A stretch of DNA of 64,000 nt from Streptomyces glaucescens. GTDB taxonomy: Bacteria > Actinomycetota > Actinomycetes > Streptomycetales > Streptomycetaceae. Positions 53,455 through 63,200 of the stretch are shown piece by piece (position 1 is the first letter of the stretch; every line of letters starts with the position of its first letter). The notes beneath the pieces were generated by a model. That model worked only from the letters and a program-made list of their open reading frames with translations. It was not told where the DNA came from and ran no database searches. Both the position numbers and the translations under genes were made by a program. The DNA lies in contig NZ_CP009438.1 of assembly GCF_000761215.1 (NCBI RefSeq), positions 1,396,501 through 1,460,500 on the forward strand, read 5' to 3'.

Positions 53455-54681
53455 TCACGGGGCGCGGTCCGGGAGAACCCCGCTGAGCAGGAACGCCACG
53501 CTCCGCTCCGTCTCCGTCCAGTGGCGGGTGTCGAGTTCCACGGACTGCAGCAGGGCGCACTGGACGCGGTAGCCGTGCTCCGTCAGGTCGCGGCCGACGA
53601 GTTCGGCGGCGTCGCGGGTGCCGGCGTGGGTGACGATGCGCTGCGGGCGGCGGTCGGCGACCGCGGACACCACGGCCGCTCCCCCGCCGCCGATCCGGAC
53701 GACGTCCGGTTCCGGCAGGTTCTCCAGCGCGTGCGGGGCGGTGCCGTGGACGACCTGGAGCTGGACGCCGAAGCGGCGGGCCGCGGCGTCGGCGCGGGCG
53801 CAGGCGGCGGGGTCCCGGTCGACGGCGATGACGGCGGCGCCGGCCCGGGCGGCCTCGACGGCGAAGGCGCCGGAGCCGGATCCGATGTCCCACACGAGGT
53901 CGCCCGGGCGGGGACCGAGGCGGGCGAGCTGGGCGGCGCGCAGCGGTTCGGTCTCGCCCTCGCCGAGGGCGGTCTCCTGGCCGGGCCCGGTGCCGTAGAC
54001 CTCGGCGGGCAGGGTCCAGCCGCGGGGACCGGCCGCCGGGTCGCGGCCGGCGATCCAGCCGCCGCCCTCCGTGCCGGCGGGTCCGCCGATGACGATGACG
54101 ACGTTCGGGTCGCGCCAGGTGTGGTCGGCGGCCTTGTCGGAGGTGACGACGGTGACCTGTTCCCGTTCGGTGCCCAGTTCCTCGCAGATGACGAAGGTGC
54201 GGTGGACGCCGTCCAGCAGCAGGCCGAGTTCGGCGGGGCCCGCCCCCGGGGCGGTGAGGACGGCCACCTTGGTGTGGGCGCGGCATACGTTGACCGCGCG
54301 GCGCAGGGTGCGGGGGTGTGCGACGACCACGTGGGCGTCGTCCCAGGGCATGCCGGCGCGGGCGAAGGCGGCGGCGACGGAGGAGACCGCGGGGACGACT
54401 TCGACCTCCAGGCCGAACTCGGGCGCGCGCAGGGTCCGCACGACGCCGAAGAAGCCGGGGTCGCCGTCGGCGAACACCACGGCCGTGCCGCGGTGGGCGG
54501 CGATGCGGCGGGCGGCGAGGGTGACGCTGCCGAGGCGGACGCGCTCCGCGGCGGGCGGTACCTCGGGCAGGGCGAGGTGGTGGGGTGCGCCGGCCACCAG
54601 GGTGGCGGCGCCGAGCGCGGCGCGTGCCGCGTCGGTCAGCGGAGAACCGTCCCAGCCGATCACCGTGACCCGGTCGGCCAT
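53455..54681 (-). CDS. cobL: Precorrin-6Y C5,15-methyltransferase (decarboxylating), CbiE-CbiT fusion
   Basis: 408 residues. The N-terminal CbiE half (about 1-205: MADRVTVIGWDGSPLTDAARAALGAATLVAGAPHHL, FADGDPGFFGVVRTL, VVPAVSSVAAAFARAGMPWDDAHVVVAHPR) methylates C5. The C-terminal CbiT half (about 215-408) has the SAM-binding VWDIGSGSGAFAVEAARAGAAVIAVDRD and methylates C15 with decarboxylation. It acts in the corrin ring pathway and lies upstream of bluB-cobT on the same strand. Confidence 0.94.
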   Translation of the reverse strand: MADRVTVIGWDGSPLTDAARAALGAATLVAGAPHHLALPEVPPAAERVRLGSVTLAARRIAAHRGTAVVFADGDPGFFGVVRTLRAPEFGLEVEVVPAVSSVAAAFARAGMPWDDAHVVVAHPRTLRRAVNVCRAHTKVAVLTAPGAGPAELGLLLDGVHRTFVICEELGTEREQVTVVTSDKAADHTWRDPNVVIVIGGPAGTEGGGWIAGRDPAAGPRGWTLPAEVYGTGPGQETALGEGETEPLRAAQLARLGPRPGDLVWDIGSGSGAFAVEAARAGAAVIAVDRDPAACARADAAARRFGVQLQVVHGTAPHALENLPEPDVVRIGGGGAAVVSAVADRRPQRIVTHAGTRDAAELVGRDLTEHGYRVQCALLQSVELDTRHWTETERSVAFLLSGVLPDRAP

Positions 54682-54777
54682 CGTCGTCAGTCTCCCGTGG
54701 TTCGCGCAGGTCGTCGGGCGGGCTTGGTGAGGGTACCCGGTGGGTGCGGGGGCGCGGCGGGTGGCCTCGCCGGTGGT

Positions 54778-55413
54778 TCAGTTCCAATCGGAGTACGCCG
54801 CGAAACCTCCGGTGTCGGCCAGTTCCTCGGCGACGCCGGCCAGGTCCTCCGGGAGCAGGCTCCAGACGATCACGTCGGTGCGTACGTCGGTCCACCCGGC
54901 CTCGGTGCGGGCGCGCGCTATCCAGGCGCCGCGCAGGACGCCCTCGCTGATGCAGCCGATTTTCTGGGCGACCTGCTGGGCGGCGGTGTTGTCGGCGGCC
55001 GTGCGCAGTTCCAGGCGTTCGAACTTCTGGTCGTTGAAGACCCACTGGGCGGTGGCCAGGGCGGCTTCGGAGGCGTAGCCCTCGCCGCGGGCCCAGGGGG
55101 CGACGACGTAGGCGAGTTCGCTGGAGCGGACCCGCCAGTCGGTGTTGCGCAGCTGGACGACGCCGACCAGACGCTGGGTCAGGAACTCGGTGACGGCGAA
55201 GACGATGCCGCGGCCCTCGGTGCGTTCGGCGGGGGCGGTCGCGGTGATCCAGTCGCGGGCGTCGGCCTCGGTGCAGGGGTGCGGTACGGAGGTCCAGGCG
55301 ACGACGAGTTCGTCGTTCATCATCTCGGCGAAGGCCTCGGTGTCCGGCTCCTCGAAGGGGCGCAGGACCAACCGCTCCGTGCTGATGGAGATGTTGGGGA
55401 AGGTGCTCGTCAT
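54778..55413 (-). CDS. GNAT acetyltransferase, RimJ/RimL type
   Basis: 211 residues. ISTERLVLRPFEEPDTEAFAEMMND is the usual RimJ/RimL opening. ELAYVVAPWARGEGYASEAALATAQWVFNDQKFERLELRTAADNTAAQQVAQKIGCISEGVLRGAW contains the acetyl-CoA loop and the conserved Asn/Ala region. It probably acetylates a protein N-terminus or a small amine; the substrate is unknown. It is separated from metQ upstream by a strong terminator. Confidence 0.88.
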   Translation of the reverse strand: MTSTFPNISISTERLVLRPFEEPDTEAFAEMMNDELVVAWTSVPHPCTEADARDWITATAPAERTEGRGIVFAVTEFLTQRLVGVVQLRNTDWRVRSSELAYVVAPWARGEGYASEAALATAQWVFNDQKFERLELRTAADNTAAQQVAQKIGCISEGVLRGAWIARARTEAGWTDVRTDVIVWSLLPEDLAGVAEELADTGGFAAYSDWN

Positions 55414-55490
55414 GGCGCCGCTCCGTAACCTTTTGAACCGTCAGGACCTGCTGAACTGCCCAGCATGCAGCATGAAAGCACCGCACCGCA

Positions 55491-55527
55491 CCACGGGGGC
55501 CCCTCCTCGCCGGAGGGGCCCCCGTGG
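55491..55527 (-). terminator. Terminator of the metNIQ operon
   Basis: A 16-bp perfect stem (CCACGGGGGCCCCTCC / GGAGGGGCCCCCGTGG) with a 5-nt loop, about 40 nt past the metQ stop codon on the minus strand. Confidence 0.8.
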
Positions 55528-55565
55528 TCGTGCGGGGCCGGGTGGCCGGGGCAGCGGGCCGTGGG

Positions 55566-56390
55566 TCAGAAGGAGGCGACGACCGATCCGGCGTACTCGT
55601 CCTCGATGAACTTCTTCACCTCGGGGGAGGTGAGCAGCTCGGCGAGCTTCTTCACGCGCGGGTCCTTCTCGCTGCCCTCCTTGACGGCGAGGAAGTTGCC
55701 GTACGGGTTGTTCTCGGCGGACTCCAGCACGAGCGCGTCCTCGGCGGGCTTGAGGTCGGCCTCGATGGCGTAGTTGCCGTTGACGACGGCGGCGTCCACG
55801 TCGTCCAGGGAGCGCGGGGTCTGGGCCGCCTCCAGCTCCTTGAACTTGAGCTGCTTGGGGTTCTTGGTGATGTCCGCGGGGGTCGCCTCGTTGCCCACGC
55901 CGTCCTTGAGGGTGATCAGACCGTTGTCGGCGAGCAGCTTGAGGGCGCGCGCCTCGTTGACGGTGTCGTTGGGGACGGCGATGGTGGCACCGCTCTTGAG
56001 GTCGTCGGCGCTCTTGACCTTGTGGGAGTACAGGCCGAGCGGCTCCAGGTGGACCGTGACGACGGGCACGATGTGGGTGCCGTTCTTCTTGTTGAAGTCG
56101 TCGAGGTACGGCTGGTTCTGGAAGTAGTTGGCGTCGACGGAGCCGTCCTCCGTGGCCGTGTTCGGCGTCACGTAGTCGGTGAACTCCCGGACCTCCAGCT
56201 CCAGGCCCGCGTCCTTGGCGAGGTTGTCCCGGACGTAGTTCAGGATCTCGGCGTGCGGGGTGGGGCTGGCGGCGACGACCAGGGGGCCGTCGGAGCCGGA
56301 GCCGGAGTCGGAGGAACCGCAGGCGGTGAGCCCGAAGGTGAGGGCTCCGGCGGCGAGGACGGCGGTGGTGATCTTGGCGGTGTTACGCAC
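55566..56390 (-). CDS. metQ: Methionine ABC transporter solute-binding lipoprotein MetQ
   Basis: 274 residues. A lipoprotein signal (MRNTAKITTAVLAAGALTFGLTAC, lipobox LTAC) is followed by an NlpA-family core (VAASPTPHAEILNYV, FTDYVTPNTATEDGSVDANYFQNQPYLDDFNKKNGT, PNDTVNEARALKLLADNGLI, VNGNYAIEADLKP). It captures methionine outside the membrane for MetNI. Third gene of metN-metI-metQ, followed by a strong terminator. Confidence 0.94.
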   Translation of the reverse strand: MRNTAKITTAVLAAGALTFGLTACGSSDSGSGSDGPLVVAASPTPHAEILNYVRDNLAKDAGLELEVREFTDYVTPNTATEDGSVDANYFQNQPYLDDFNKKNGTHIVPVVTVHLEPLGLYSHKVKSADDLKSGATIAVPNDTVNEARALKLLADNGLITLKDGVGNEATPADITKNPKQLKFKELEAAQTPRSLDDVDAAVVNGNYAIEADLKPAEDALVLESAENNPYGNFLAVKEGSEKDPRVKKLAELLTSPEVKKFIEDEYAGSVVASF

Positions 56391-56475
56391 GAAAAGTGCC
56401 TTTCCTTATGGGTGGTGCGACCCCGTCGTGGGTGGACGGGGAGTCTGGGGGCGTCTTACGCGGCGGTACGGGGGC

Positions 56476-57213
56476 TCACGCGACCTTGCCGATGTCGGCC
56501 GCCGCCGGCTCCTTCGCCTTGAGCAGGCGGAGCCTCGGGCCGGGGCCGGAGCGGGCGCCGCGGCGGTGCACGGCGCGGGCCGCGTAGTCGCCGGCGAACT
56601 GGATGAGGGAGATCACCACGGCGAGGACCGCCACGGTGACCCACATCAGCCCGGTCTCGAAGCGCTGGAAGCCGTAGCGGACCGCGAGGTCGCCGAGGCC
56701 ACCGCCGCCGACCGTGCCGGCCATGGCGGAGTAGCCGATGAGGGCGATGACCGTGGTGGTGGTGCTGGCGATCAGGGAGGGCAGGGCCTCGGGGACCAGC
56801 ACCTTGCGGACGATGGTCCAGGTGTTGCCGCCCATCGACTGCACGGCCTCGACCAGCCCGTGGTCCACCTCGCGCACGGCGGTCTCGACGAGCCGGGCGA
56901 AGAACGGGATGCCGCCGATGGCGAGCGGCACGATCGCGGCGTAGCTGCCGATGGTCGTGCCGGTGATCCAGCGGGTGAAGTTCATCAGGGCGACCATCAG
57001 GATGATGAACGGCATCGAGCGGCCGATGTTCACGACCTGCCCGATGACCTTGTTCACCACGGTGTTCTCGAGCAGTCCGCCCTTGTCGGTGAGGACCAGC
57101 AGGACGCCCAGCGGCAGCCCGGCGACCACGGCGATCAGGGTCGACCAGCCGACCATGATCAGCGTCTCGGTACAGGCCTGCTCCAGCAGCGGCTGCATCT
57201 CGGACCAGGTCAC
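56476..57213 (-). CDS. metI: Methionine ABC transporter permease MetI
   Basis: 245 residues, GTG start at 57213 overlapping the metN stop (GTGA). Five membrane segments. The EAA motif is EAVQSMGGNTWTIVRKVLVPEALPSL. NIGRSMPFIILMVALM is typical of MetI. The C-terminus is a basic cytoplasmic tail. It forms the channel with MetN as the ATPase. Confidence 0.94.
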   Translation of the reverse strand: MTWSEMQPLLEQACTETLIMVGWSTLIAVVAGLPLGVLLVLTDKGGLLENTVVNKVIGQVVNIGRSMPFIILMVALMNFTRWITGTTIGSYAAIVPLAIGGIPFFARLVETAVREVDHGLVEAVQSMGGNTWTIVRKVLVPEALPSLIASTTTTVIALIGYSAMAGTVGGGGLGDLAVRYGFQRFETGLMWVTVAVLAVVISLIQFAGDYAARAVHRRGARSGPGPRLRLLKAKEPAAADIGKVA

Positions 57214-58247
57214 TTGGCACCTTCCTTCACCAGGGCGGGCTGCTCCGCGCCGACGACGTCGACCTGCAGGCCGTGCTCGCGCAGGAAGCCGACGGGCACG
57301 ACGTTGTCCTCGTAGCGGCCGGGCAGCTCGATGCGCATCCGGCCGACCTGGAGGCCGCCTACGGTGTCGATGGCCGCGCCGAGGATGGAGATGTCGATGT
57401 TGTAGGTGCGGGCGAGCTGGGAGATGACCGGCTGGGTGGCGGCCTCGCCGTGGAAGGTGACGTCGAGGACGGTCCGGTCGTCGGCGGAGGCCTCGCCGCC
57501 GACGGGGAACAGCGCGGCGGCGAGCTGGGAGCCGGGGGTGGCGAGCAGTTCGCTGACCGTGCCGGACTCCACGATGCGGCCCCGTTCCATCAGCGCGGCC
57601 GAGTCGCAGATCGACTTCACGACGTCCATCTCGTGGGTGATGAGCAGGACGGTCAGGCCCAGTTGCCGGTTGAGGTCGCGCAGCAGCTGGAGGATGGAGC
57701 GGGTGGTCTCCGGGTCGAGGGCGCTGGTGGCCTCGTCGGAGAGCAGCACCTTGGGGTCGCCGGCCAGGGCGCGGGCGATGCCGACGCGCTGCTTCTGGCC
57801 GCCGGAGAGCTGGGCGGGGTAGGCCTTGGCCTTGTCGGCGAGGCCGACGAGGTCGAGGAGTTCGAGGGCCTTGCGGGACCGGTCCTTGCCGGACGTGCCG
57901 AGGATCTCCAGCGGCAGCTCCACGTTGTCCTGGACGGTCCGCGAGGACAGCAGGTTGAAGTGCTGGAAGACCATGCCGATCCGGCTGCGCGCCTGCCGCA
58001 GCTCACGGCCGGCGCGGGGGCCGCGGCCGGCGAGCGCGGTGAGGTCCTGCCCGGCGACGGTGACCGTGCCGGCGGTGGGGCGCTCCAGGAGGTTGACGCA
58101 GCGGATGAGCGAGGACTTGCCGGCGCCGGACTGGCCGATGACGCCGTACACCTCGCCTTCGCGGACGTGCAGGTCGACGCCGTCGAGGGCGGTGACCTCG
58201 CGGCCGCGTGAGCGGTAGACCTTGGTCAGGCCCGATGTGGTGATCAC
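57210..58247 (-). CDS. metN: Methionine ABC transporter ATP-binding protein MetN
   Basis: 345 residues from the GTG at 58247 (MITTSGLTKVYRSRG); a longer frame to 58334 adds a basic unconserved stretch. Walker A GQSGAGKS (38-45), signature LSGGQKQRVGIARAL, Walker B KVLLSDEATSALD and switch histidine THEMD are present. The C-terminal NIL domain (VLDVTFHGEAATQPVISQLARTYNIDISILGAAIDTVGG) senses methionine inside the cell and inhibits transport in E. coli MetN. It follows a Cys/Met-rich leader peptide gene. Confidence 0.95.
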   Translation of the reverse strand: MITTSGLTKVYRSRGREVTALDGVDLHVREGEVYGVIGQSGAGKSSLIRCVNLLERPTAGTVTVAGQDLTALAGRGPRAGRELRQARSRIGMVFQHFNLLSSRTVQDNVELPLEILGTSGKDRSRKALELLDLVGLADKAKAYPAQLSGGQKQRVGIARALAGDPKVLLSDEATSALDPETTRSILQLLRDLNRQLGLTVLLITHEMDVVKSICDSAALMERGRIVESGTVSELLATPGSQLAAALFPVGGEASADDRTVLDVTFHGEAATQPVISQLARTYNIDISILGAAIDTVGGLQVGRMRIELPGRYEDNVVPVGFLREHGLQVDVVGAEQPALVKEGAK

Positions 58248-58468
58248 GTGGATTCCGTCACTGTCGAGTGCGCGGCGCGGGGGTGGGCGCCGGGCACGGG
58301 GCGTTGTTCTTCGGGGGGCTTCGGAACGCGGCACGGTTCTCGCATGGCGGGAGACCGGGGAGATACCGGTGCGCGGGGGCGGCGGCTCGGTGCCGGGCGC
58401 GGGGCGCCACGGCGGACACGAGCGGGCACTCGCTTCGGGGCGCGAGGCTCAGGTGGTGCGGGGGCCCT

Positions 58469-58561
58469 CTAGAAGGCGCACATTCGGCACGGACACATAC
58501 AAGCAGCACCGGGCGTCATGGTCGCCTCGGTCGCCAGGGTGCGGCTGCTCGTCGTGGTCAT
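58469..58561 (-). CDS. Cys/Met-rich leader peptide upstream of metNIQ
   Basis: A 30-codon frame begins at the ATG at 58561 and ends TAG at 58469, 221 nt before metN. The first 20 residues are Thr/Ala/Ser-rich. The last ten are C-M-C-P-C-R-M-C-A-F: four Cys and two Met, after a further Met at position 15. There is no Shine-Dalgarno sequence. A TTTACT hexamer ends 6 nt before the ATG, so a leaderless transcript is possible. Clustering of the two sulfur amino acids just before the stop, in front of a methionine importer, suggests attenuation by ribosome stalling. This is inferred from sequence only. Confidence 0.6.
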   Translation of the reverse strand: MTTTSSRTLATEATMTPGAACMCPCRMCAF

Positions 58562-58644
58562 GCGATCAGTAAAGCAGACCGCCGGGGCAAACCGGTCACC
58601 GCTGTCCGCATGGTGGACAGTGGTGGGACGGCGGCGGGACCGGG

Positions 58645-59292
58645 TCAGTCCCGTACGGCGATCTCCACCGACCCGTCGGTGACCAGGAGCGACAGGGCCG
58701 ACAGGTCCCGGACCACCAGGTCGGCGTCGAGGGCGTCGGCGGGGTGGGTTGTGGCCAAGGCCACGGTGGTCATCCCGGCGGCGCGGCCCGCGGCGAGCCC
58801 GGCGGGGGCGTCCTCGAAGACGACGCAGGCGGCCGGGTCTGCACCCAGGGCGCGGGCGCCCAGCAGATAGGGCTCGGGATCGGGCTTGCCGCGGGTGATG
58901 TCGTCGGCGGCGATCAGGGTCTTGGGCAGGATGCCGACGGCGTGGAGGCGGGCCTCGGCGAGCCGGCGGGTGGCCGAGGTGACGACGGCCCAGCGGTCGG
59001 CGGGGAGCGCGGCGAGGAAGTCCCGGGTACCGGGCAGCAGCCGTACGCCGCCGGGCACGTCGTCGACCTCCAGCTGCTCGATGCGGGCGACGGCCTCCGG
59101 CACCACCTCAGCGGGCAGCAGGTCGGCGGCTATCTCGGCGGCCGGGCGCCCGTGCAGGGCGACCCGGCGGAACCGCTCCGCCGTGATGCCGTACTCCCCC
59201 GCCCACCTCGTCCAGCAGCGCTCCACGGATTCCAGGGAGGAGACGAGCGTGCCGTCGTTGTCGAACAGGAGTGCCTGTGCGCTGATCTTCAT
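58645..59292 (-). CDS. HAD-superfamily sugar-phosphatase-like hydrolase
   Basis: 215 residues from the ATG at 59292. Motif I LLFDNDGTLVSS has Asn between the two catalytic aspartates (DNDGT), a variant seen in some sugar phosphatases. Motif II is VVTSA, motif III K in TRGKPDPEPYLLGA and motif IV VVFEDAPAGLAAGRAAGM. The C1 cap lies between residues about 18 and 80. It resembles the GPP/YfbT group acting on small sugar or polyol phosphates; the substrate is unknown. Divergent from the small membrane-protein pair. Confidence 0.87.
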   Translation of the reverse strand: MKISAQALLFDNDGTLVSSLESVERCWTRWAGEYGITAERFRRVALHGRPAAEIAADLLPAEVVPEAVARIEQLEVDDVPGGVRLLPGTRDFLAALPADRWAVVTSATRRLAEARLHAVGILPKTLIAADDITRGKPDPEPYLLGARALGADPAACVVFEDAPAGLAAGRAAGMTTVALATTHPADALDADLVVRDLSALSLLVTDGSVEIAVRD

Positions 59293-59386
59293 GCCCTCGA
59301 CCCTACGGGGCGGCGCCGGAGGGCCGTGCCGGCCGAGCGCCGGGGGTGACGGCGGGGTGTCCGTTGCGTCGTAATAAGGTCGCTGC

Positions 59387-59746
59387 ATGCTTGATGCCCT
59401 GACGCTGCTGACCGGGGTCGCCGCGCTGCTGCTCGCCGCGTGGTGCGGCTGGGCGGCGTACCGAGACCAGCCGACGAAGGACTGGCACTTCATCGGGATG
59501 GCCGTGGTGACCGCGCTGGCCCTGATCCAGCTCGTCGTCGGCGTCGTGCAGCTCGCCCGGGGCGAGAAGCCGGACCAGGGGACGACGATCTTCGTGGCGT
59601 ATCTGCTGGGCGCGTTCGCGTGCGTGCCGGCCGCCGGGTTCCTGTCGCTGGGCGAACGCTCCAAGTGGGGCTCGGTGACCGTGGCCGCGAGCGGTGTCGT
59701 GCTCGCCGTGCTGGAGGTGCGGCTTCATGACATCTGGGGAGGCTGA
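59387..59746 (+). CDS. Hypothetical membrane protein, four-span type
   Basis: 119 residues with about four hydrophobic segments (LTLLTGVAALLLAAWCGWAAY; FIGMAVVTALALIQLVVGVVQL; TIFVAYLLGAFACVPAAGFLSL; VTVAASGVVLAVLEVRL). Upstream TAATAAGGT(N8)ATG includes a possible -10 box and an AAGG site. No catalytic motif. It overlaps the next membrane-protein gene by 20 nt, so the pair is probably cotranslated. Confidence 0.78.
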   Translation: MLDALTLLTGVAALLLAAWCGWAAYRDQPTKDWHFIGMAVVTALALIQLVVGVVQLARGEKPDQGTTIFVAYLLGAFACVPAAGFLSLGERSKWGSVTVAASGVVLAVLEVRLHDIWGG

Positions 59747-60173
59747 GGTGAGCACGGTCCGGGGAAGGCGGCTGGCCGGCGGGCCCGGGACGCTGCTCGT
59801 CTGGCTGTACGGCGTGATGGTCGTCGGCGCGGTGTCGCGCTCGGTGTACCAGATCGCCACCGAGTTCGACCGGGCGCCGCTCGCCTACGCGCTGTCGGCG
59901 GTGGCCGGCGTGGTCTACGGCTTCATCACCTGCACGCTGGTGCGGGGCGGGGAGAAGGCCCGCAGGGCGGCGCTGGTGTGCTGCGCGGCCGAACTGGTGG
60001 GCGTGCTGGTCGTCGGCGCCTGGACCCTGGTGGAGCCGTCGGCGTTCCCCGATGCCACCGTGTGGTCGGACTTCGGGATGGGCTACCTCTTCATCCCGGT
60101 GATCCTGCCGGTGTCCGCGCTGTTCTGGCTGCGGCCGGCGCGGGCCGGGCGGCCGGGACTCACCGGCGCCTGA
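59727..60173 (+). CDS. Hypothetical membrane protein
   Basis: 148 residues from the ATG at 59727 (GAGGTG upstream); a GTG at 59748 is an alternative with GGGGAGG upstream. Four hydrophobic segments (TLLVWLYGVMVVGAVSRSVY; LAYALSAVAGVVYGFITCTLV; AALVCCAAELVGVLVVGAWTLV; GYLFIPVILPVSALFWL). The layout resembles small conserved actinobacterial integral membrane proteins of unknown role. Its stop codon lies in a 39-nt direct duplication shared with the convergent NTPase gene. Confidence 0.78.
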   Translation: MTSGEAEVSTVRGRRLAGGPGTLLVWLYGVMVVGAVSRSVYQIATEFDRAPLAYALSAVAGVVYGFITCTLVRGGEKARRAALVCCAAELVGVLVVGAWTLVEPSAFPDATVWSDFGMGYLFIPVILPVSALFWLRPARAGRPGLTGA

Positions 60174-60232
60174 ACCGGCGGTGCCGGCCGGACGGGACTC
60201 ACCGGCGCCTGAACCGGCGGTGCCGGCCGGAC
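60155..60232. repeat. Perfect 39-nt tandem duplication covering two convergent stop codons
   Basis: A 39-nt unit beginning GGGACTCACCGGCGCCTGAA occurs twice head to tail (60155-60193 and 60194-60232) without a mismatch. Each copy holds TGA for the plus-strand frame and TCA (TGA on the other strand) for the minus-strand frame. The plus gene stops in copy 1 and the minus gene stops in copy 2. Confidence 0.92.
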
Positions 60233-63200
60233 GGCTCGGAGGTCGCGGGGGCGGCCGCGGCGTCCTTCGACGGCGTACGCGTGCGCTCGGCCATCGCTCC
60301 CCAGAAGCGGGCGAGTTCACGGTTGGTCGTGCCCTGCCAGCCCGCCCTCCTGCGGCGCAGTGTCCGCCGGCTCACCAGCGCCTGCTGCTGCCGGCAGAAG
60401 GGCTCACGCAGCTCACCGCCCGGCTGTTCGCCCTTCGCCGGGTAGGGGCACAGTTCGAACTTGCAGCCGCGCAGGCAGCTCGTGCCGGGCTCGGCCGTTC
60501 CGGGCATGCCGACCGTCCGCTCGGGACGCAGGGCCGTACGGTCCGTCCGCAGACAGGGCGGCAGCTCCGTCCGGCTGGTCCGCTGCAGCCGGTCGTCCAC
60601 CATGAAGCCGTCCCGTTCCGTGAGGTTGAGCAGCAGCAGGACGTCGGCGAGGAGCTGCTGGGCGCGCGGGTGCAGGGTGCTCCAGCCCTGCGACGGGGGG
60701 ATCCACAGGTTGTGCTTGCGGTGGATCGTCGCGTCCGCGGGGCTGGACCCGATCTTGAGCGTGGCCCCGCGCTCGTCGATCCAGACGAACCGCTCCGGGT
60801 GCCCCGTCCGCAGCGCCAGCGCCGCGAGGTCGCCGGCCTCGGCGACGAAGGGGTGCAGGCGCCTGGCCGCCTCGCCCCGCGTCTCGTCCGCGGGCCGGTC
60901 GCCCGGGGCCTGGGCACTGCCGGCCATGCTCAGCCAGCGCTCCACCGCGCGCAGCGGCTCGGTACCGGAGCGCCTGCCGGCCGGCGGGCCGTCCCGCATC
61001 CCGGCGTCGTCCCCGCTGTCCGGCAACTCCCAGAGGCACAGCGCGTGGACGAGCGTGAGCTGCGTGTACCAGTACCGTGCGTGGGTGAGCATGCGTTCCG
61101 CCTGCTCGATGAGGTACTCGCGGGTCTCGTCGGAGGTCGCCGGGTGGCGCTTGCGGCGGTTGGCGGCCCCCTTGAACCCCTGCGCGAGGGCGATCTCCAG
61201 GGAGATGGGCAGATCCGCCTTCCCCGTCGCGGGGTTCGGCGTCAGGTGCCGCAGCCACAGGTCCAGCCGTTCCCGGGCCACGGCCCGGCGGTCGGTGCCC
61301 ACGGAGCCCACCACCATGGGAACCAGCCAGGCCCGCATGACGAACTCGCGCCACACCTCGACCGCGGTCCGCCGGCCGGCCGGCTGCGGGACATCGGCCG
61401 GGGCGAGCGGGATCAGCCTCTCCTCGCGTTCCAGGCCCTCCTCGTACTTCAGGTCGGCCATGGCCTTCTTGTACTGCTCCCAGGGGTCGTAGTGGTCGGT
61501 GCCGGACTCCTCCTTCCGCCTCGGCCAGGGGAAGAGCTGGCGCAGTGCGTCGAACGCGTTGTCCCCGCCCGCGCCGATCTCCTGGGCGATGGCCAGCCGG
61601 ACCGGATAGCCGGGCTCCTTCCAGCTGATGCGCATGAGCTGCCCGTAGGAGGGCCGCACGAACCGGGTCGCGTCCGGGCTCCGGCTCGCCCGGTCCAGCC
61701 GGCGGGCCGCCTCCCCGAACCGCTGCACGAGTCTCAGCTTGGCCTCGCCGAGCGTTCTGGCGTCGCCGTCCTTGAGGTCCGGCCAGCGCCGCAGGAGCGT
61801 GCTGGCGATGAGGTGGTGTGCCGAGTCGTCGATCCGCCCGGTGTCGATCTCCAGTGCCGCGGCGTACAGGTCGAACGCCTTGTCGTCCAGGCGGCCTTCC
61901 GCCGCTTCCAGCAGCAGGTCGACCGTGGCGCGCTGGGGGGTGGGCCGATCGCCCTGGGCGCGCATGACGAAGGCCATGAGGAGTTCACGGCCCGGGTCGG
62001 CCAGGGCGGTCGCGAGGGCGTCACCGGTGCTGCGCTGGAGGACGTCGAGGAACCCGGAGCCGAGATAGGCCTGGATGATGCTGTGCGGGAACCGCACCTT
62101 GCGGCTGTACGCCTCGACCAGGCCGAGTTGCTCCCCGCGCTCCGCGAACCGCGACAGCACGCTCCGCCAGCAGGCCCCCGAGGCGGTGGGCGACGGCAGG
62201 TCCGCGACCCGTCCGGCCAGCTCCTCGAGGATCTCCGGGTGGCGGACCTCGGGTTCCCCGGTCCGCCCGCCGCCTGCCCGCCAGTCGATCAGCTCGTCGA
62301 ATCCGACCTCCTGCCGGTCGTTGAGCAGACCGATGCAGGCCAGCGCCGACACCAGGGCGACGGTCTCGCGGCGCTCCTCCTGCGAGATGCCGAACTGGGC
62401 GCGCAGGTGGCCGTCGACCAGGGCCTCCACCCATGACCTCAGGAGCCGTACGCGGATGCCCGCACGGTCGCTTCCCCGGGTGTCGATCGGCTCCCGTGGC
62501 CTGGCTCCCTGGAGGTGTTCGAGGAGCTGGTGCTGCCGCAGCTGCCGTACGAGCTGCAGGTAGAGCGGCGACTCGGCGACGGCGGCCGTCTCCACGATCC
62601 AGTCGAGCCGCCGGTCGTCCGCCCCGGGGCCCTGCTCCACGAGGTACGTGAGCGCGGCCTCGTCGCTGAGCGGTTCGAGGTCGATCACCGCGGCCCGGGT
62701 GCCTTCGAGCGCGGCGTGCGGCCGTGAGGCGATCACGAGCGGGATCCCCTGCTGCTCGGCTCGTTCGACGGCCCGGCGGATCAGGCCGTCCCGCTCCGCC
62801 TCCCGTTCGTCGTCGGAGAAGGCCTCCTCCAGTCCGTCCGCGATGATGACGGCCTTGTCGTCCATGCACAGCTGCCGCCACACGCGTTCGGCCTGCGACC
62901 GGGACAGGACGCCGGGGTCGACCTGGTCGCAGAACCGTTTCTTGGCCAGTTCGCTGAAGTTGAACTCGCCGTTGTCGAGGTCCGCCCTGCGCAGATGGAC
63001 GGGGACGGGAAGTGCTCCCTTCTCGGCCAGTACCTGCGTCAACTGCACCAGCACCGCCGTCTTTCCGCTGCCGACACCGCCGACGAGCACGTACGGCCGG
63101 CGCCAGCGGCGGCTGCGGAGGGCCTGGGCGATGACCGAGCACAGCTCCTTCCTGCCGACCACCTCGTCGATGATCGAACCGGCGGTGGGCACCAGGTCCC

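Follow-up and report, generated by a model that had tools for sequence, protein, structure and literature searches.

The window analysed here, a 64,000-nucleotide stretch of the Streptomyces glaucescens genome, carries on its minus strand a methionine importer operon preceded by a short open reading frame (ORF). The gene metN, encoding the methionine ABC importer ATPase, occupies positions 57210 to 58247 and has orthologues in relatives; it is followed by metI (56476 to 57213), which from its position and sequence we take to encode the permease, and by metQ (55566 to 56390), on the same grounds presumably the gene for the binding lipoprotein. Between the metN GTG start codon (58247-58245) and the stop codon (TAG) of a 30-codon frame at 58469 to 58561, which reads MTTTSSRTLATEATMTPGAACMCPCRMCAF, lie 221 nt. 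The original prediction, made from the letters of the window, had placed a Cys/Met-rich frame at exactly this position and at this distance upstream of metNIQ, and the ORF list bears out both. Homologues and frame-preserving length differences, described below, further mark the frame as a leader peptide ORF, homologous to metL of Streptomyces lividans. The prediction had also pointed to a TTTACT just ahead of the ATG; this -10-like hexamer (58568 to 58573) lies 6 nt 5' of the start codon, a placement that suggests a leaderless-type start. It is present in 115 of 120 distinct Streptomyces leaders and in variant form in 4 more, with a spacer of 6 or 7 nt in those 119; a generic sigma-70 scan gave no match. 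The gene 5' of the leader (58645 to 59664, minus strand), presumably encoding a HAD-type hydrolase from the look of its sequence, stops 83 nt short of the leader ATG, which puts the leader promoter in a short intergenic gap.

The leader, and the idea that it acts by attenuation, are already in print. In its available text, the 2021 reannotation of S. lividans TK24 (PMC8079986) gives metL (SLIV_29928), MSTTSDRTPATEATTTPGARCMCRRMCAF, as the leader peptide of metNIQ, with a transcript that is leaderless by RNA-seq, "several methionines and threonines," and hairpins without a typical terminator, and reads it as a Met/Thr-dependent attenuator in that one strain. The leader of the window is the same gene in another species, likewise in front of metNIQ and likewise without a typical terminator. 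Four loci in our collection (L034, L038, L040, and L138) encode a peptide identical to that of S. lividans.

Conservation within the genus was assessed in a sample of every fourth of 295 genomes, 75 including the window's own, in which loci were located by a MetN search and the peptide played no part in the choice. MetN was matched at E up to 1e-90 in 73 of the 75; in one of these (G050) metN begins at a contig end, so that 72 upstream regions could be examined. A leader homologue was found in every one of them, 71 by script and the last (L097), with an insert over the script's length limit, by eye. Because a homologue precedes metN in 72 of 72 regions, we judge the leader ORF to be far beyond chance. 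The original prediction was to stand or fall in part with the persistence of the frame and of its terminal Cys/Met codons among relatives; the frame persists in all these regions, and in 100 distinct peptides neither residue near the stop falls to zero. In a second draw, the consensus peptide was matched (E up to 0.1) in 125 of 132 same-genus genomes, and 3 of the 7 nonmatching genomes (G202, G319, and G343) carry the leader by the core model, with metN behind it. Six genomes, G022 and G110 from the first draw together with G322, G358, G359, and G394, yielded only weak core-model matches (E 0.011-0.85) and have no metN orthologue, their best MetN matches being at 43-48% identity. Leader and metN orthologue were co-present or co-absent in every case examined. 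Among 58 further loci, 40 of them chosen for a weak peptide match, the script recovered 55 leaders; the 3 that it dropped carry the leader on direct reading, one of them in sequence truncated by a contig end. The pooled set comprises 126 leaders, 120 of them distinct. One Streptomyces genome (G002; loci L055 and L220) has two metN copies, each with a leader block. We conclude that the leader ORF is real and conserved, and that it is probably regulatory.

Length variation bears on translation. The distances from the start codon to a conserved ACCGAGG block and from that block to the motif CGAATG are multiples of 3 in all 119 leaders measured, with the second distance falling into 8 length classes from 39 to 69 nt; from the CGA to the stop codon there are 18 nt in 118 of 120 leaders. 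Past the stop codon this periodicity is lost: the gaps to metN, 156-265 nt long, are spread over the three phases as 41, 40, and 39 of 120, and the distance from GGGC to the hairpin P4 described below (12-28 nt, 107 measured) does not vary in multiples of 3. One reservation is that the collection admitted only open frames 22-50 codons long that carry a conserved motif, although no leader of the every-fourth sample was lost thereby. Because length differences within the ORF are multiples of three and the spacings after the stop are not, sequence comparison indicates that the leader ORF is translated.

The last 12 residues of 100 distinct peptides contain on average 2.86 Cys and 1.87 Met, and never zero of either. 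Set against the 27 coding-like ORFs of the window, in which Cys makes up 0.79% of codons and Met 1.35%, this amounts to an enrichment of about 30-fold for Cys and about 11-fold for Met. The predicted Cys/Met-rich ending thus holds for both residues, with the correction that Cys is the more enriched of the two and indeed the most enriched residue near the stop. As in cysteine attenuators of the mycobacterial type, Cys codons cluster close to the stop (mean 2.86, minimum 1). No Cys codon is invariant; position -4 is TGY in 86 leaders, CGC in 33, and another codon in 1. The near-invariant feature is the codon pair CGA-ATG (Arg-Met; 58481 to 58486 in the window), found in 119 of 120 leaders, as are CGA and ATG when counted codon by codon. 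In some leaders the last 12 residues include just 1 Cys or just 1 Met, which is weak for the sensing of starvation. Codon choice is skewed as well: TGT outnumbers TGC by 242 to 123 in the leaders and stands at 11 to 102 in the window ORFs, where CGA is rare (48 of 1253 Arg codons). The TGT bias and the fixation of a codon as rare as CGA suggest that the leader codons are constrained at the level of RNA or decoding as well as by the amino acid.

At the RNA level, the constant codons of the leader ORF make up a three-way junction, with some covariation. Its basal helix, P1, pairs codons 3-5 with codons 19-21; the 5' strand ACGAGCAGC (58544 to 58552) was placed from the fold of leader L031 and the genus alignment and is shifted by one codon in the window relative to most relatives, and the 3' strand GCUGCUUGU (58499 to 58507; fold of L031) ends at the first Cys codon. 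Within the junction, a small hairpin, Pa (CGC...GCG; 58532 to 58543), joins codons 7-8 to codons 9-10, and P2, ACCG(A)GGCG / CGCCCGGU (58508 to 58531), joins codons 11-13 to codons 16-18 with a bulged A and a variable loop, both by fold and genus alignment. The variable codons 6, 8-9, and 14-15 fall in the junction joint and the loops. Across an alignment of all 92 distinct cores from 118 standard-layout leaders, 96.7% of cells were paired and 5 pairs showed both-sided changes, in 12 cells, a level reached by none of 500 shuffles, the model having been derived from the same sequences on which its pairing was counted. All 8 pairs of P2 are kept in 92 of 92 sequences, with 4 both-sided changes. 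Extra pair types were not above shuffles (185 of 500), and sliding the junction cuts pairing to 49% or less, a slide of -2 still giving 12 both-sided cells. Compensatory cases include 3 sequences in which GCG has become GCA and the partner C has become U, and L049, in which GAG has become GAA and CCC has become CUC, an amino acid change on one side answering a synonymous change on the other. The window retains P1 through its one-codon register shift. By itself, RNAalifold detected P2 but no other helix of the junction, and no more than part of the hairpin P5 described below.

Beside the stop codon lies GGGCCC (58462 to 58467), followed by the hairpin P4, CUCGC-GCCCCGAA-GCGAG (58429 to 58446), whose loop is present in 117 of 120 leaders and is common to Actinomadura. 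Of 120 leaders, 116 have both GGG[CT]CC and the P4 loop and 3 have neither; the remaining leader has GGGCCT with the loop. In an alignment of 39 stretches, taken from 40 that were selected out of 105 to represent diversity and without L132, whose stop is shifted, P4 shows two both-sided changes, one of them from outside the genus. A further hairpin, P5 (58268 to 58297), stands just 5' of the metN start region. In 91 of the 105 stretches, 14 being left out, some of them divergent, it has 57 both-sided cells against 18.4 in shuffles and a score of 0.208 against 0.088, with the count of pairs showing a both-sided change not clearly above shuffles (66 of 500). P5 held when the 14 were added: with all 105 stretches, 91.1% of cells are paired, with 62 both-sided cells against 19.5 in 300 shuffles. 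Four loci (L105, L110, L098, and L112) reach only 4-6 of its 9 pairs, and in L105 and L110 (4-5 pairs) it is not formed. Covariation in the stems downstream of the ORF, named beforehand as a check on the leader, is seen in P5 and, as two both-sided changes, in P4.

Individual loci depart from this layout. In L118, additional sequence containing an inverted repeat splits the 5' strand of P4 just past the leader stop, so that the hairpin seems to have been disrupted naturally. In L105, L110, and L097, the post-stop stretch ahead of P4 repeats the ACCGAGGCGA of the ORF, and in L105 and L110 the block before metN is also different. A second ORF in the Streptomyces pre-metN block was considered and set aside: its GTGC-to-TGA spacing, read by eye in, for example, L064, L032, and L031, differs by non-multiples of three, so that the frame is lost, and the block is hairpin P5.

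A search of positions 54000-62000 of the window against Rfam families gave no match at E up to 5, to a SAM riboswitch or any other, in agreement with the original prediction that the leader has no SAM riboswitch. Intrinsic terminators, a hairpin followed by a T run as in classical trp-type attenuators, were found in none of the 120 Streptomyces leaders, the window's included. The spacer between P4 and P5 is rich in C (46%, with G at 28%) and would suit Rho, but C also accounts for 38% at the start of metN.

A model of the block formed by CGAATG, the stop, GGGCCC, and P4 (R1) was carried beyond the genus. Of the named Actinomadura metN loci it matches 7 of 7, and of the genomes of a related genus (g106) 4 of 5. 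When genomes were drawn from across the class, 31 of 296 gave a match with E no higher than 0.01; 28 of these belong to Streptomyces, G622 is a strong match, and G424 and G572 (E 0.003) are weak ones. The match in G424 (locus L258, E 5e-6) has no CGAATG and no metN signature in its stretch and was taken as probably due to chance. In 41 relatives of G542 the search returned nothing, in keeping with the different leader type of that lineage. The 13 Actinomadura-type peptides end in CRMC.. or RRMC.. and hold 3.4 Cys and 1.9 Met in their last 12 residues, with a different N-terminal half; these loci were collected for having the block, and because their starts were picked by a -10-like motif, that motif is not independent evidence. 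Two basal Streptomyces leaders end SARCCRCRMC.

A wider sample was drawn from one family, by its named records the Actinomadura-Planobispora-Nonomuraea group, which we take to be the Streptosporangiaceae. metN was found in 46 of 90 genomes, and in the best 30 of these loci a frame with at least 4 Cys and Met in its last 15 codons lies upstream of metN in 17; the reverse complements yield 0 of 30, and shuffling yields 0.3. Among 19 loci with weaker MetN matches (10 Streptosporangiaceae and 9 from other families), 2 have such a frame, L171 (Streptosporangiaceae) and L185 (another family), against 1 of 19 reverse complements. Cys/Met-rich leaders thus precede metN in 18 of 40 Streptosporangiaceae loci; many other members of this family, to which we limit the claim, have leaders different from the Streptomyces type. 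Terminator candidates occur in 2 of 20 loci of the Streptosporangiaceae set, and one leader of the family has a sub-threshold Pfam match.

Between leader and metN, Streptosporangiaceae loci contain a second conserved small ORF, for example MNCPADTLVLRRLSHLPFHPGTR or MIFQRHLLSHAPYPPGRA, that ends near a P-x-x-P-G motif; such a motif resembles ribosome-stalling sequences. It was seen in L171, L172, L189-L194, L196, L204, L208, L209, L211, L216, and L217 and in the named loci L263-L269, L272-L274, L276, L279, and L282. Two examples had no NCBIfam match and one no Pfam match. A query with it gave no significant match in 5 Streptomyces genomes, the same query missing the Actinomadura-type version in G622, G668, and G659, and the SHxP/FPPG-type strings in 16 of 120 Streptomyces leaders look like chance.

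Homology, translation, Cys/Met enrichment, the RNA helices, and the fixed geometry of CGAATG, stop, and GGGCCC are all products of comparison among relatives. The reading that we prefer, and consider likely with room for doubt, is that the leader is a translated, leaderless-type regulatory ORF at whose Cys/Met codons stalling ribosomes would control metNIQ, turning it ON at a shortage of sulfur amino acids. A methionine (and threonine) attenuator, which would read charged tRNA-Met and contain Cys only incidentally, is the arrangement proposed for S. lividans, the available text of PMC8079986 assigning metL to Met/Thr. It accords with an operon that imports methionine, with a last Met codon that is among the most constant of the sense codons (119 of 120), and with ten leaders of other Streptosporangiaceae whose last 24 residues hold on average 4.4 Met and 3.0 Cys. 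However, Cys is enriched more than Met over background, the Actinomadura-type and basal Streptomyces endings given above are likewise dominated by Cys, and the Thr codons sit in the junction RNA, away from the stop. We regard a signal from methionine and threonine alone as rather unlikely.

The constancy of Arg-Met, which far exceeds that of Cys or Met codon numbers, and the fixation of a CGA that is rare elsewhere in the window would be natural in a nascent-chain arrest peptide, whose C-R-M tail stalls the ribosome upon a metabolite such as SAM or Met and not in response to tRNA charging. We think this improbable: the same nucleotides are constant across families, so a constraint on the RNA can explain them, and the N-terminal residues differ in Actinomadura. 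A riboswitch-like structured RNA with an incidental ORF draws on the compensatory changes in the junction, P4, and P5, but it would have to accommodate length differences that preserve the frame, junction helices that stay constant between variable loops and joints (an aptamer would show the opposite), and the empty Rfam search, and we give it very little credence. Still harder to credit is a small Cys-rich protein with a function of its own, such as metal binding, cotranscribed with metNIQ: the window copy does space its Cys residues as CxCxC, but the Cys pattern is not conserved, there is no NCBIfam or Pfam match, and the codons are constrained as RNA.

Under the preferred model of control by stalling at Cys/Met codons, the 5'-terminal AUG would recruit the ribosome, and scarcity of charged tRNA-Cys (mainly) or tRNA-Met would slow it at C-M-C..C-R-M-C, 3-10 codons before the stop. 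A ribosome slowed there would hold P1 open and leave the stop-adjacent GGGCCC uncovered, and one that reaches the stop would let P1 re-form and would cover GGGCCC. The downstream leader RNA, consisting of P4, the C-rich spacer, and P5, would relay the difference, with the result that the importer is made at a shortage of sulfur amino acids; premature, perhaps Rho-dependent, termination and translation of metN are the candidate readouts. The stalling itself, the footprint argument, Cys as the main signal, and the ON state under starvation are what we infer.

Folding with a ribosome in place is consistent with part of this scheme. With the ribosome at the last Met codon, the mean probability of P1 drops from 0.88 to 0.16, and with the ribosome at the stop it is 0.90 (104 leaders, with an assumed footprint length); for the window's own sequence the value is 0, owing to the shifted register. 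Openness of the metN Shine-Dalgarno (SD) sequence is 0.51-0.53 whichever of the four ribosome states is modelled; for the whole start region it is 0.43 with no ribosome and 0.47-0.48 with a ribosome anywhere (104 leaders). The prediction that stalling refolds the RNA between 58248 and 58468 thus finds conserved hairpins there, but predicted access to the SD sequence and start of metN is practically unchanged by ribosome position. A long-range pairing (B:R) between the leader codons UGU-CGA-AUG-UGC and GCGCACUCGACA before metN was also considered. In 84 of the 120 leaders, the segment that pairs best with the leader 3' end begins between -35 and -31 relative to the metN GTG, and the observed mean energy is reached by shuffled ends in 2.8% of cases; the pairing has a probability of 0.43 on average and is likely in most Streptomyces. 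As a switch of the ribosome-binding site (RBS) it was rejected, having an A.C mismatch, a probability of 0.02 in the window's own sequence, no prediction in Streptosporangiaceae, and no effect on RBS access, and it is kept as a lead.

A more specific version of translation-gated control is possible, although we hold it only tentatively. Here, ribosome position on the Cys/Met codons would decide whether GGGCCC pairs with the CCCC loop of P4 in a predicted pseudoknot, P1 would serve as a second switch-like helix, and the ..SH.P..PG small ORF of Streptosporangiaceae would add a further ribosome input. The co-occurrence of the two elements in 116 of 120 leaders supports this pairing, as do the GGGCCT leader, which still fits, and the fixed distance from CGA to stop next to a variable one from GGGC to P4.

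Among known systems, the polycysteine leaderless short ORFs of mycobacteria, reportedly the subject of work by Canestrari and colleagues in 2020, come closest. In a mycobacterial-type attenuator, a stalled ribosome opens a structure that hides a downstream RBS. A review, in the portion available, describes mycobacterial leaderless ORFs with contiguous Cys codons that regulate through Cys supply, and the accessible text of PMC4633059 reports Cys-rich upstream ORFs with ribosome occupancy in Mycobacterium smegmatis. Like these, the leader of the window is leaderless in type, has Cys codons near its stop, and stands before genes for sulfur amino acids, and by analogy it most likely works as they do. 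It differs in the Met and Arg codons mixed in among the Cys codons, in its target, a methionine importer, and in the specific block of CGAATG, stop, GGGCCC, and P4, and release of the RBS, as opposed to the mycobacterial case, is not supported by folding here. Seliverstov et al. (2005; PMC1262725), in the text available, described Cys leader peptides in Mycobacterium, Propionibacterium, and Bifidobacterium that likewise have Cys codons near the stop and no terminator hairpin, with Rho suggested; these precede other operons, and no conserved RNA structure was found upstream of methionine operons.

The original prediction of a translated, conserved, leaderless-type Cys/Met-rich leader peptide before metNIQ, with conserved RNA structure in and after the ORF, is therefore upheld, and its attenuation idea had already been published for S. 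lividans. Unlike the present analysis, the available text of that account (PMC8079986) reports no conservation, junction within the ORF, P4, P5, or Cys bias. Streptomyces transcript-boundary papers name no metN leader in the main text available, and nothing on the RNA parts, the Cys bias, or a core shared across families came up in the literature searched, supplements and most subscription papers apart. Added here are the Cys bias with its near-invariant CGA-ATG, the junction within the ORF, the block common to Actinomadura, the Streptosporangiaceae leaders, and P5 ahead of metN.

What had been an annotation in one strain now becomes a regulatory element with defined parts that spans the genus and in part crosses families. 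For high-GC actinomycetes, the leader provides a clean system in which to test how leader peptides exert control when no intrinsic terminator is present, a point left open in the 2005 and 2021 papers. The findings further suggest that Cys, and not Met alone, controls the import of methionine in Streptomyces.
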